From positions 1-64,000 of the forward strand of contig LDWW01000017.1 in the NCBI GenBank assembly GCA_001045525.1: DNA of 64,000 nucleotides. Direction: 5' to 3'. The position numbers and the translations under genes were made by a program. Shown one piece after another: positions 1-4,125 of this stretch. Under the pieces are notes generated by a model. That model was given only the letters and a program-made list of their open reading frames with translations. It ran no database searches and was not told the origin of the DNA. How positions within the stretch are numbered: the stretch's first letter is position 1; every line of letters begins with the position of its first letter. Origin of the DNA: Chitinispirillum alkaliphilum. Its GTDB lineage: Bacteria > Fibrobacterota > Chitinivibrionia > Chitinivibrionales > Chitinispirillaceae.

Positions 1-1
1 G

Positions 2-181
2 GGGCTTAACAAAAGAAAGTCAACAATAAGGGCACGGGTTGAACATGTATTTGGTCGAATGGCCATGATGCATGAAAACACCCTTCGGTGTATCGGGCAG
101 CATCGGGCTGCGAGCAGGAATTTTTTAAGAAACACCGTTTACAACATTACTCGATATGAGACAATTGTTCGCTATGCATAA
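2..181 (+). mobile_element. IS5-family-like transposase, C-terminal fragment
   Basis: The open frame enters from the left edge and stops at TAA 179-181, giving about 59 residues. It contains the string RARVEHVFG, followed by a basic stretch and a tail reading NTVYNITRYETIVRYA. This is the typical C-terminal block of IS5-group DDE transposases, where the catalytic Glu region is followed by an R-VEHVFG motif. Only the 3' end is inside the window, so it cannot be said whether the copy is intact. Positions 182-329 follow without a gene and should include the right end of the element, but no terminal inverted repeat can be paired without the left end. The element borders the decayed accessory stretch to about 3.3 kb. 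Confidence 0.75.
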
Positions 182-329
182 ACAGTACAAAATAGGGGGA
201 ACTATATCCTTACATATTGGATCATTATCGCAATTTTTTGTCCGAAGTCCCGAACAAAAATCCCTTATATCAACTAATTGAATTAATTTTGATAATGAAC
301 AATTGAATTTTCGGTTTCAACATAGATTT

Positions 330-803
330 TTAGAGGTCACCTTCTTCAGGAAATTGAAAATCTGCAGGTACTGCTGCATAGTAGGCTCTCACGCTGTCGG
401 GTAGGCTTGGGTCTATTCCTTCCTGAATTATTTCATAATCCATGGGATAATCAAACAGCACGAAATTACTGTCACTGGTTTCATATCCTTCCATAATTGC
501 CCATTGCTCCTCACCGTAGGGCAGAAACTTTACATATATATAGTTGGGGTCTATCTCAAATTCAGAGTCCTCAATTGCTGCTCTTTTATGCAACCCTGCG
601 TTGTCTTTACTAAGCAGTGACATAAACGCAGCTCTCATATTCTCTATCGTGTACGGGTCATCCAGTTTTTCTCCGAGTATTAGCTGTTCCTCAACAGGGA
701 TATCCCGATTAGCCGGGGTAACCACATCAACATTTGAACAAGAAAAAAAGAATAACAAGAGAAAAAGTTTTAAGGCGAATGCCTCTTTAATAAGGTTCTT
801 CAT
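330..803 (-). CDS. Hypothetical lipoprotein
   Basis: The protein has about 157 residues with a strongly hydrophobic N-terminus rich in Phe and Leu, ending in a lipobox-like FFFSC. It is therefore predicted to be exported, lipidated on Cys and anchored in the envelope. The rest is acidic, with no repeat or catalytic motif that I recognise. The ATG at 801-803 is preferred. A GTG three codons upstream is possible, but the purine-rich GAAGG lies between the two. It stands alone, transcribed toward the insertion-sequence fragment, with almost 500 bases of apparently noncoding DNA upstream. Function unknown. Confidence 0.65.
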   Translation of the reverse strand: MKNLIKEAFALKLFLLLFFFSCSNVDVVTPANRDIPVEEQLILGEKLDDPYTIENMRAAFMSLLSKDNAGLHKRAAIEDSEFEIDPNYIYVKFLPYGEEQWAIMEGYETSDSNFVLFDYPMDYEIIQEGIDPSLPDSVRAYYAAVPADFQFPEEGDL

Positions 804-1306
804 AACCTTCACTTCTATTTAATAAGTGGTGTGTGAGATGGAATTGACAGGAGTGTCATTCTCAATATATAGAATAAACTGCTGCCATGCAGAATTTTTT
901 TCAGGATCAAACAGTTCTTTACAACAACGCACAGCATATCAAAAATGTTAGTAACCATTATCGAGGTATCGATATCTTCATTCAGCGATATCAGGTCCAT
1001 TCCCCCACTCCCCTGTTTTCTGTACCGTCTCATTTCCCCATAAATAAACTGCCGTATCGGGACTTTGAAAACGGGACGGGTTTTGGAACAGTAATTCAGG
1101 GTGATTTGAGGCTGATTTGCAGGAAATTCAGGTGTCCCGTTTAACCTTCGTTTTTAGGACTGGGGGAATAATGTGTGTTTGGTATTCATTGCCCTTTTTG
1201 TATTTTTTGCGTAAATCTTTACATTTAAATTCGATTCCGATGAGATCAGTAGAGCTTTCGTAACAAAGTGCAATCGTTTGTGCTACAGATGTAAATTCCT
1301 ATACTT
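804..1306. other. Gene-free stretch with a 9-bp inverted repeat
   Basis: No credible gene is seen in these 500 bases. Short open frames on both strands lack ribosome binding sites and protein-like composition. The one structure noted is a pair of inverted 9-mers, AAACGGGAC at 1069-1077 and GTCCCGTTT at 1134-1142, separated by 56 bases. It could be a remnant of a mobile-element end or a weak hairpin. The stretch lies between two minus-strand genes and probably carries the promoter of the lipoprotein gene, but no convincing -10/-35 pair was found. Confidence 0.4.
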
Positions 1307-2461
1307 TTAATCCAGTAGGATGAAGTCTGGTGTCTCTATAATTTTACTTTTTCCAGATGTTTTCAACAACCCAGAAATTTTAACGTTAATTCCTTTATCA
1401 AGAGCTTCGCAAGCTTTGCTAAAATCTTCAGTATTTAATAAAACCTTCGCTTTAATAATTTTTTCTTCATCTCCAATGAAATTAAATGTGATCTCACCTT
1501 CGCTACGATTAGCAGTATCAGGGTCTGCTTGTGCTTTAGAAACTTTTCCAACAAATGTCCCGGCCTTCCCCTCGTCAATAGGCTTAAGTTTCGAGATTAT
1601 TGATTCCATAGGAGGAATGTAATCTTTTGTAAATGATACGGCTCTCGGAACATCTATGACATCTTTTGTTATAGATGACCACGATGTAAATATTTCTATT
1701 TCTTCCTTATCGCCATATTCACCTAGTTCAACTATACTTTCTATAAAATTGGCACTTATCGTTTCAGGTTGATTAGGATCTTCAAGAGATTCGTGATTGC
1801 CTGTTTCGATTACATCTTTAAGCCTTGCGAGTGCTTTCATGTATCTCTTCGTAACTTTTCTTGTAAAAGAGGTCCCAAGCTTATCTTCAGTATTAAATAA
1901 ACTTAGTTGAATCGGTTTTTCTTCAATTGTTTCTTTAACAAAAGGACATACTACAGATGCAACAAAACTGCCTCTTTCTGTCTGACCAAGAAAACACGAG
2001 TCTATAAATTGCTGTGCATTTTTATATGACATTCTTTTATGAAATGATGTAGGATTTACAATATCACAAGCTGTTGCAAATAAAGATTTTTTTGCATTTT
2101 CAAGTAGGGCAAAACCGTCGTTAAATGATATTAGACCTAATTCTGTCTTTTGATTTTCAACTCGAAATCTAATCACATCAGAGGGTGGCACTAAAAGATC
2201 GTTAATTACTCTTTCAGGCTCTCTATTTTCTACGAATGCAATTTTTGAGATAGCTTTATATATCAATTCATCATAATCTGAAAAGGCTCTACTTATAGGC
2301 AATAATATTTCTGTAGGTTTTGGCAATTCTGTATAGAAAATGGTTAAGCCTTCCCGCTTGCTTTGCTTTTTTGTCCAATCTCTGTTTTGCAAATATCTTT
2401 GAAGCGTAGCAAAACTTAGTCGATTCACCACCGTTAAGGCTATTTTTGTATCGATATTCAT
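1307..2461 (-). CDS. Protein of unknown function, coupled to a DUF4365-type fragment
   Basis: A complete 384-residue frame with no signal peptide or membrane segment. The middle contains SYKNAQQFIDSCFLGQTERG and then a hydrophobic SFVASVVCPFV, which look like conserved blocks of a soluble family I cannot name with certainty. The last 80 residues alternate hydrophobic and charged residues, as in a small beta-rich domain. The start ATG (2461-2459) overlaps the TGA of the upstream fragment as ATGA, a classic sign of translational coupling. The upstream partner (2458-2700) is the truncated C-terminus of a DUF4365-like protein, so this gene was probably the second member of a two-gene unit. DUF4365 proteins are often found in accessory and defence-type regions, so a defence role is possible but not shown. 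Confidence 0.7.
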   Translation of the reverse strand: MNIDTKIALTVVNRLSFATLQRYLQNRDWTKKQSKREGLTIFYTELPKPTEILLPISRAFSDYDELIYKAISKIAFVENREPERVINDLLVPPSDVIRFRVENQKTELGLISFNDGFALLENAKKSLFATACDIVNPTSFHKRMSYKNAQQFIDSCFLGQTERGSFVASVVCPFVKETIEEKPIQLSLFNTEDKLGTSFTRKVTKRYMKALARLKDVIETGNHESLEDPNQPETISANFIESIVELGEYGDKEEIEIFTSWSSITKDVIDVPRAVSFTKDYIPPMESIISKLKPIDEGKAGTFVGKVSKAQADPDTANRSEGEITFNFIGDEEKIIKAKVLLNTEDFSKACEALDKGINVKISGLLKTSGKSKIIETPDFILLD

Positions 2462-2700
2462 AATTCTTCTTCTTTGGAAGTTTTAAGCATTAAATTATAA
2501 ACCAAGTCTGGCGAAAATGTGTTCGCAGTAGGGGTTCTTACCGTAACAGATGTCTGATTGTCAGATTCAGGGAGTCCTTTGAGGTTATAATAATAAGCAC
2601 ATTTTTTTACTATAAGCTCCTCCGGCGAGTGCTTTAGCCAGTCTTCCGATTCTTCGGAAAGACACAGTACTACAAGAAGTCGAGGTGTTCCAGTACCATA
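2458..2700 (-). pseudogene. C-terminal fragment of a DUF4365-domain gene
   Basis: Translating the minus strand in the frame that ends at TGA 2460-2458 gives about 80 codons without a start. They begin near TPRLLVVLCLSEESEDWL and continue with KKCAYYYNLKGLPESDN, then SVTVRTP and a short tail ending KTSKEEEL. From memory of DUF4365 proteins, the C-terminus reads P-R-hydrophobic-VV, then D-WL, RCAYW-SLRG-P-T-N, TVTV-P; the agreement is close over the whole fragment. An in-frame TAA lies about 10 codons upstream, inside the neighbouring DUF2493 gene. The N-terminal two thirds is therefore missing, and the piece overlaps that gene from 2670 to 2700. It is a remnant created by a deletion or recombination joining two genes. 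Confidence 0.7.
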
Positions 2701-2987
2701 GTAAACTTCGTTCCTCTGGATTTACCATCCCAGAAGGCAATTACCATATTGGAGGCATCAACGATCAACTTGTTCCGCACTAAAGGTGCTCCCCTACCGT
2801 GCTTTTTGTAATCAGGAAGAAACTCCTGCAGCTCGATGTTGTTTTCCCTGGCATACTGTGCTGCCAGTGAATCCGCCCCCTTCGCTCCACCAGAGACAAT
2901 CTTTACGATTTCCTCTTTATCCAGTGTTTCTTTCAACAAAGAATAATCAAATCCGCGCGATCCGATAACCGCTATTCTTTTCATCAT
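2670..2987 (-). CDS. DUF2493 / SLOG-superfamily protein with altered C-terminus
   Basis: About 105 residues. It shows the nucleotide-binding style motifs of the DUF2493 family: IAVIGSRGF near the N-terminus, SGGAKGADSLA around 32-42, and RNKLIVDASNMVIAFWDG before GTKFT. SLOG-type domains bind nucleotides or their derivatives. The start is placed at the ATGATG at 2987/2984 because AGGGGG precedes it; a longer 116-residue version is possible. In the family GTK-T is usually followed by a short helix and strand. Here the last nine residues instead come from DNA that, in another frame, encodes the DUF4365 fragment. The gene is thus probably a chimera truncated by the same event. A 38-aa peptide gene lies just upstream. 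Confidence 0.7.
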   Translation of the reverse strand: MMKRIAVIGSRGFDYSLLKETLDKEEIVKIVSGGAKGADSLAAQYARENNIELQEFLPDYKKHGRGAPLVRNKLIVDASNMVIAFWDGKSRGTKFTMVLEHLDFL

Positions 2988-3028
2988 ACCCCCTGGCAGT
3001 CTCAATTCCTGAGACTGCAATAAAGTAG

Positions 3029-3145
3029 TTACTTTTCTTTTTCCTGTGAACTGTCCGTATCGCTCTCTAAGTCAAGCTTCTCCAAAATGGCCCCCAGCTC
3101 TTCTTCGGTCAAAAGGCGCTCTTCCTCATACCAAATTCTTGTCAT
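3029..3145 (-). CDS. Small acidic peptide, 38 residues
   Basis: A short frame starting MTRIWYEEERLLTEEELG and ending in a Ser/Glu/Lys-rich tail. It has a GAGGAT ribosome binding site about 7 bases before the ATG and ends about 40 bases before the DUF2493 gene on the same strand. A longer version starting at 3271 exists, but its first 42 codons look noncoding and the ribosome site favours the short form. It is mostly helical and acidic in character. No function is known to me; co-transcription with the DUF2493 gene is likely. Confidence 0.45.
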   Translation of the reverse strand: MTRIWYEEERLLTEEELGAILEKLDLESDTDSSQEKEK

Positions 3146-3360
3146 GCTATATCCTCGTTGTAATCTTAATGAGAATCTGGTCAAATGCGAAAAAAAATAT
3201 GTATCGCTGCTAATGATGATACACGCGTCTGGTCTGCAATTCATCATTAAAAAAATTGAACACCTGAACATAACCCCGGAGTCCCCTTTGGCATGGTTAT
3301 TGTTCTATTCTCTAAGTAAAAAGAGAATTCAGGTTTTAGAGAGAAAGAGCGCTTAAGTTT

Positions 3361-4125
3361 ATGTTTCCATTAAGAGATGAAAACCCTACTTTCCGCACCT
3401 CTTTTCTTACATTCATTATAATAGGGCTCAACGTAGCCGTATGGATATTTATTCAGGGCATGGGTCGTGAGCCGCATGTAAGCCGCTCGATTTGCAGATT
3501 TGGTCTCATTGCCGGGGAGCTTCTTGGCACGGTCAATGAGGGGACACGGATCACAATCAGCCGCGACACTCAATGTGTAATCGGTGAACCAAACTGGTTT
3601 ACGGTATTCTCATCGATGTTTCTTCATGGGGGTTGGTTTCATTTAATCGGTAATATGTGGTTTCTGTATGTGTTCGGGGATAATATCGAGGACTCCACCA
3701 GCAGAGTGAAATTTGTCTTTTTCTTTTTACTGTGTGGTTTGGCGGCAAGCGCAGCTCAAATGCTTTCAAATCCCGCCAGCCCTGTTCCGATGGTGGGAGC
3801 TTCCGGGGCGATAAGCGGGGTTATGGGTGCATATGCAGTTCTCTATCCCAAGGCACCTGTTCACATGCTGATCTTTCTGGGATTTTTCATAACACGGATA
3901 GTCATCCCCGCATACCTTCTTCTTGGCTACTGGTTTCTTATACAGTTCCTTGGTGCACTTCCTGCCCTCACCGGCGAATCCAATGGAGGAGGGATAGCAT
4001 TCTGGGCCCATATAGGCGGGTTCATCGCCGGAGTGATACTCATACCCTTCTTTCAAAACAAAAACCAGGTACATCTTCACCGGGAAGCGCTGGAGGAGCG
4101 GTGGCGATGGCGGGATGAGGGTTGA
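3361..4125 (+). CDS. Rhomboid-family intramembrane serine protease
   Basis: 254 residues with at least six hydrophobic segments. Rhomboid hallmarks are present: HLIGN at 94-98 in the second membrane helix, GASG at 147-150 with the catalytic Ser148, and AHIGG with the catalytic His217. Rhomboids cleave transmembrane substrates within the inner membrane. The loop between the first helix and the HxxxN segment is long and holds two Cys (44 and 72), which could form a periplasmic disulfide. It is divergent from the DUF2493 side and followed by a 250-base gap before gmd. No clear Shine-Dalgarno sequence precedes the ATG. The substrate cannot be told from sequence. Confidence 0.93.
   Translation: MFPLRDENPTFRTSFLTFIIIGLNVAVWIFIQGMGREPHVSRSICRFGLIAGELLGTVNEGTRITISRDTQCVIGEPNWFTVFSSMFLHGGWFHLIGNMWFLYVFGDNIEDSTSRVKFVFFFLLCGLAASAAQMLSNPASPVPMVGASGAISGVMGAYAVLYPKAPVHMLIFLGFFITRIVIPAYLLLGYWFLIQFLGALPALTGESNGGGIAFWAHIGGFIAGVILIPFFQNKNQVHLHREALEERWRWRDEG

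Follow-up and report, generated by a model that had tools for sequence, protein, structure and literature searches.

PDC-M02 is a candidate anti-phage defence system in PADLOC that consists of two genes, PDC-M02A and PDC-M02B. PDC candidates stem from a guilt-by-embedding approach, and experimental validation is pending for most of those discussed (PMC12988326, 2026); the literature that we searched contained no published function for PDC-M02. The domain of M02A, DUF4365, has been described as PD-(D/E)XK-like, and in the SPARDA-type protein TmuRE the residues Q62 and K64 are potential active-site residues whose mutation gives an inactive form (PMC10810196). The predicted structure of an intact M02A from a Weeksellaceae MAG (L031; pLDDT 94.4) had such a PD-(D/E)XK-like fold and matched the SPARDA DUF4365 chains best (9qcc, E 8.5e-6), and its Q-x-K at positions 61/63 resembles Q62/K64 of TmuRE. 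Unlike the SPARDA nuclease, which is a DUF4365-APAZ protein with a short Argonaute, M02A is a stand-alone protein without APAZ and without an Argonaute partner.

We compared these systems with a locus near one end of the window, the whole 64,000-nucleotide stretch of Chitinispirillum alkaliphilum DNA that was analysed. The features of the locus are as follows.

2–181, plus strand: DDE transposase gene, 3′ end only, at the edge of the contig and within an apparent AT-rich insertion (PF01609 DDE_Tnp_1, E 1.3e-5, profile positions 155–200 of 200).
1307–2461, minus strand: PDC-M02B, 384 aa, intact, with a C-terminal OB-fold (PADLOC PDLC04321).
2458–2685, minus strand: C-terminal remnant of PDC-M02A (DUF4365), matching PDLC04278 and lacking a start codon.
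2670–2987, minus strand: truncated DUF2493/YAcAr (YspA-type SLOG) gene, PF10686, 105 aa, whose last 8 codons are out-of-frame M02A DNA.
2686–2696, minus strand: junction interval, from codon-by-codon comparison with L004 (SLOG gene, same genus) and L031 (M02A).
2722–2724, minus strand: TAA stop that precedes the remnant in the frame of M02A (from frame reading).
3361–4125, plus strand: rhomboid gene, the first of the conserved right flank, 79% identical to and syntenic with that of a same-genus genome (G001).

The minus-strand frame that ends at 2458 stays open over 87 codons, with the sequence ...IQRNEVYYGTGTPRLLVVLCL...KKCAYYYNLKGLPESDN...SVTVRTP...EEEL, including TPRLLVVLCL. The initial annotation had placed a DUF4365 fragment with this pattern at 2458–2700; the frame is real, but homology to M02A begins at 2685, not at 2700. 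Among the PDC-M02A models of PADLOC, the remnant matched PDLC04278 best (E 3.4e-24, positions 90–165 of 167), and it also matched Pfam DUF4365 (PF14280, E 6.9e-5, profile positions 81–136 of 139). Its Pfam score of 23.4 bits is slightly below the gathering cut-off of 24.3 bits because half of the DUF4365 domain is missing. Against the intact M02A of the Weeksellaceae pair, the remnant was 59.5% identical over 84 aa. This similarity lies well outside chance; the DUF4365 name was therefore right, and the profile check proposed for the fragment and the neighbouring DUF2493 protein matched both families. The fragment had also been described as having no start and a TAA about ten codons upstream. 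We found no ATG, GTG or TTG in the remnant frame between the TAA and the first homologous residue, and the TAA is indeed present, at a distance of about 12 codons. In comparison with an intact PDC-M02A, the first ~89 residues and any start are absent. A genome search did not recover the missing N-terminal half at another place, but it was weak for want of a positive control; a full-length PF14280 search of the genome likewise gave no match, and its controls gave none either.

The neighbouring gene on the same strand belongs to the YspA/cpYpsA-related SLOG family (PF10686, formerly DUF2493). It matched the Pfam YAcAr profile with E 5.1e-12 (45.9 bits against a cut-off of 28.2) and carries the nucleotide-binding motifs SGGAxGAD and FWDGxSxGT. 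In contrast to the family, its C-terminal tail is replaced by eight out-of-frame codons. Relatives align with residues 1–97 only, with identities of 67% in the same genus (G001; 66% over the 97 residues), 60% in the same family (G009) and 52% in the same order (G034), and they extend ~20 or more residues beyond the break. The match to relatives runs through ...FTM (window 2697) and gives way to foreign sequence, so the SLOG gene has lost its C-terminal tail; the switch to MVLEHLDFL that had been proposed from the window sequence thus holds, the frame ending there as MVLEHLDFL*. Just upstream of the SLOG gene, at 3032–3145 on the minus strand, lies a 38-codon ORF (MTRIWYEEERLLTEEELGAILEKLDLESDTDSSQEKEK) with no relative among the fetched loci.

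At the DNA level, the window and the SLOG gene of G001 share sequence up to TTTACTATG, which ends at 2697; beyond it the G001 gene continues with AGATACGCT and the window with GTACTGGAACA. Similarity to M02A starts at CCT, 2685. Since the SLOG match ends at 2697 and the M02A match begins at 2685, the join lies within the 11 bases 2686–2696. A single shared break point, previously put near 2689–2700, is borne out, with this slightly shifted position. Third-position GC content also steps at the join, from 0.50 in the SLOG gene to 0.34 in M02A and 0.23 in M02B, with host flank genes at 0.50–0.54. From this change in composition, the SLOG side and the M02 side probably differ in history. We saw no IS end at the join, and no sigma-70-like promoter was found near it or before M02B, with the reservation that Fibrobacterota promoters may differ.

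The truncation removed the part of M02A that would hold its active site. In an alignment of 46 M02A sequences, the near-invariant positions ahead of the break include D33, D38, Q61, K63 and Y84 (L031 numbering). The residues D38, Q61 and K63 lie upstream of the join, whereas what is left in the window starts at about residue 94, and the putative nuclease site is thus absent; compared with the SPARDA DUF4365 proteins, the remnant lacks the half that bears Q-x-K and thus the complete domain with its D...QxK motif. Such a truncation would be expected to abolish nuclease activity and hence defence.

Directly downstream of the remnant lies an intact gene that the initial annotation had not included, PDC-M02B. 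Its product matched PDLC04321 over its full length (E 4.2e-135, residues 9–384 on profile positions 8–383 of 383), and its start overlaps the end of M02A: the TGA of the remnant (2458–2460) and the ATG of M02B (2459–2461) share an ATGA at 2458–2461. Judged from these profile matches and the gene order, the fragment is recognisably one half of a candidate PDC-M02 pair whose second gene is still whole, which adds to the earlier description of the locus. Translation of M02B may still begin at the gene's own start codon. Its predicted model (pLDDT 93.8) shows an OB-fold at residues 295–384 that is similar to SSB, PriB and RPA domains (structure search, Z 7–9, for a common fold). In the structure searches made, this C-terminal OB-fold was the only part of M02B that found matches. 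Sequence searches against solved structures gave weak matches only.

We then examined how PDC-M02 is arranged in other genomes. When the M02B protein of the window alone served as query, GTDB and IMG/VR gave no matches, whereas an alignment-based scan with one genome per species identified 80 loci with M02B relatives. In about 71 of them, a full-length M02A lies directly upstream and ends at or near the start of M02B, and none of the 80 has a SLOG (DUF2493) relative near M02B. The nearest intact pair was that of the Weeksellaceae MAG (M02B 54% identical), in which the M02A stop is spelled ...TTATGA, a form shared by L033, L034, L042 and the window. The five plasmid pairs inspected, from Entomospira, Phaeobacter, Gluconobacter, Pusillibacter and Caballeronia, had the same order and overlap. 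The window thus shares its gene order and ATGA-type overlap with intact plasmid and GTDB loci, and PADLOC models recognise both of its genes, but only M02B is whole; with M02A truncated, it does not hold the two intact genes that a functional PDC-M02 requires. Comparison with related genomes had been suggested as a way to see whether the same arrangement recurs, and we found it nowhere else. Because the pair is intact in about 71 of the 80 loci and SLOG stands near none, the arrangement in the window is derived and, within the reach of these searches, private to this genome.

This comparison also bears on whether the overlap of SLOG and M02A could function as a fusion, for instance by frameshifting, or whether a short protein could be made from the remnant. 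The frame of the remnant remains open and shows no decay, which speaks for such a reading; with no start codon, a TAA upstream, the catalytic half absent and the arrangement present in no other locus, we nevertheless regard this reading as highly improbable.

The genomic setting places the locus in DNA of a different character from the rest of the window. The right flank, which begins with the rhomboid gene at 3361, follows the gene order of G001 at ~60–83% identity. In G001, the gene to the left of the rhomboid gene, at a distance of ~1 kb, is one that from our reading of the sequence we take to be hcp. In C. alkaliphilum, the corresponding hcp lies on another contig (C39), 3.5 kb from its end, where the contig terminates in the 3′ part of an rve-type transposase gene. 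The hcp–rhomboid spacing is therefore at least 6.9 kb of AT-rich DNA in this genome versus ~1 kb in G001. The AT-rich DNA is mostly 34–40% GC versus 45% for the rest of the window, and the assembly breaks inside it at transposase genes at both contig edges. From the synteny with G001 and the transposase genes at the ends of C39 and of the window, at least 6.9 kb of AT-rich DNA appears to have been inserted between hcp and the rhomboid gene. As a separate observation, the hcp–rhomboid interval (G000:C39:1-3540, L133, and window 1–3340) has the look of an insertion hot spot, with an FMN-reductase-like gene aboard. The insertion also encodes a 160-aa lipoprotein (330–812, minus strand) whose residues 17–155 are ~30–45% identical to Fibrobacterota relatives; these lie mostly in open frames of 530–870 aa, and the lipoprotein may be a C-terminally truncated remnant.

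The setting also requires that an assembly chimera be weighed, in which the SLOG and M02 sides come from different places and were wrongly joined. The genome is fragmented (160 contigs, 3.64% contamination), the join lies 2.7 kb from a contig end and coincides with the GC step, and the closest M02B relative comes from a Bacteroidota MAG. Against these points, what the two parents could have in common at the join is limited to ~11 bases and a few more, well short of an assembly k-mer, and the lipoprotein to the left of the M02 genes has Fibrobacterota relatives. The AT-rich sequence resumes on C39 beside hcp, the flank gene of G001, and elsewhere M02A has been truncated independently beside an intact M02B, the isolate Pararobbsia alpina (L059) being one such record. 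We consider a chimera improbable; a chimera between phyla was considered as a specific case and judged unlikely as well.

To assess the age of the join, we compared the divergence of the remnant with that of M02B, using 903 pairs of intact loci as the baseline; a remnant long released from constraint should be the more diverged of the two. The remnant showed no excess divergence: its C-half identities fell on the expected line, with a mean z of +0.23 over 43 pairs. As the remnant has not diverged beyond what M02B predicts, the join event looks recent, if it is not an assembly artefact.

Our main reading, to which we assign a probability of about 0.8, is that an AT-rich insertion, acquired horizontally and lying between hcp and the rhomboid gene, would have carried PDC-M02, comprising a putative DUF4365 nuclease of the PD-(D/E)XK type (A) and an OB-fold partner (B). 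A single recent illegitimate event, for which a deletion between two same-strand genes is the simplest form, would then have fused the first 97 codons of SLOG to the last ~75 codons of M02A in a different frame. The initial annotation had likewise proposed that one deletion joined the two genes. That both are truncated at one point is observed; a single deletion would be the simplest cause, while an insertion would look alike. Specifically, an already truncated M02A–M02B segment could have entered the SLOG gene by insertion or recombination while the larger insertion was built up, yielding an identical sequence. The host-like GC3 of SLOG and the different GC3 of the M02 genes are consistent with this alternative, as are the nearby transposase ends and the lack of SLOG as an M02 neighbour elsewhere, and it deserves more weight than a chimera. 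It nevertheless requires two break points, no IS end marks the join, and the displaced SLOG 3′ end did not turn up on the other side, where a 25-residue tail would be hard to detect; we therefore hold it to be a possible but clearly less probable route than a deletion. No intact parental sequence or arrangement of this lineage was found.

Several other loci retain M02B next to a damaged M02A. In a second Fibrobacterota genome, a Candidatus Fibrimonadales (L032, G142:C288, 666–748), M02A consists of its first 24–26 codons (MLTENKIKEELNLAYVISVAATKKWS) and an intact M02B follows immediately, an arrangement that reads as an independent loss of the nuclease. M02B is also whole in Pararobbsia alpina, where M02A (3771–3938) is N-terminally truncated, in Methylobacterium pseudosasicola (L077), where M02A (3450–3926) is broken by a stop, and in Archangium violaceum (L043), where M02A (3491–3986) is broken by a frameshift. 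Stops or frameshifts likewise interrupt M02A in L087, with M02B whole, and in L039, with M02B running off the contig. The reverse case, M02A kept and M02B broken, was clear in only one of the 80 loci (L082). Since M02B was the means by which loci were found and ranked, this excess of broken A over broken B is biased and serves as a lead rather than a firm statistic. The pattern hints that M02B can persist alone. A nuclease-independent role, in which M02B is retained once M02A is lost, in the manner of an antitoxin-like protein with a protective or regulatory function, would be a speculative and rather doubtful extension.

The join looks like an ordinary kind of gene decay, in a very clear example that lies within an apparently mobile insertion. 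It offers a clean, and seemingly recent, case of the decay of a candidate defence system, in which one break removed the enzyme half and left the partner whole. For annotation, the lesson is that counting M02B (or DUF2493) genes is not the same as counting working systems. If loss of A with retention of B proved general, it would suggest which PDC-M02 protein is costly and which is the control partner.
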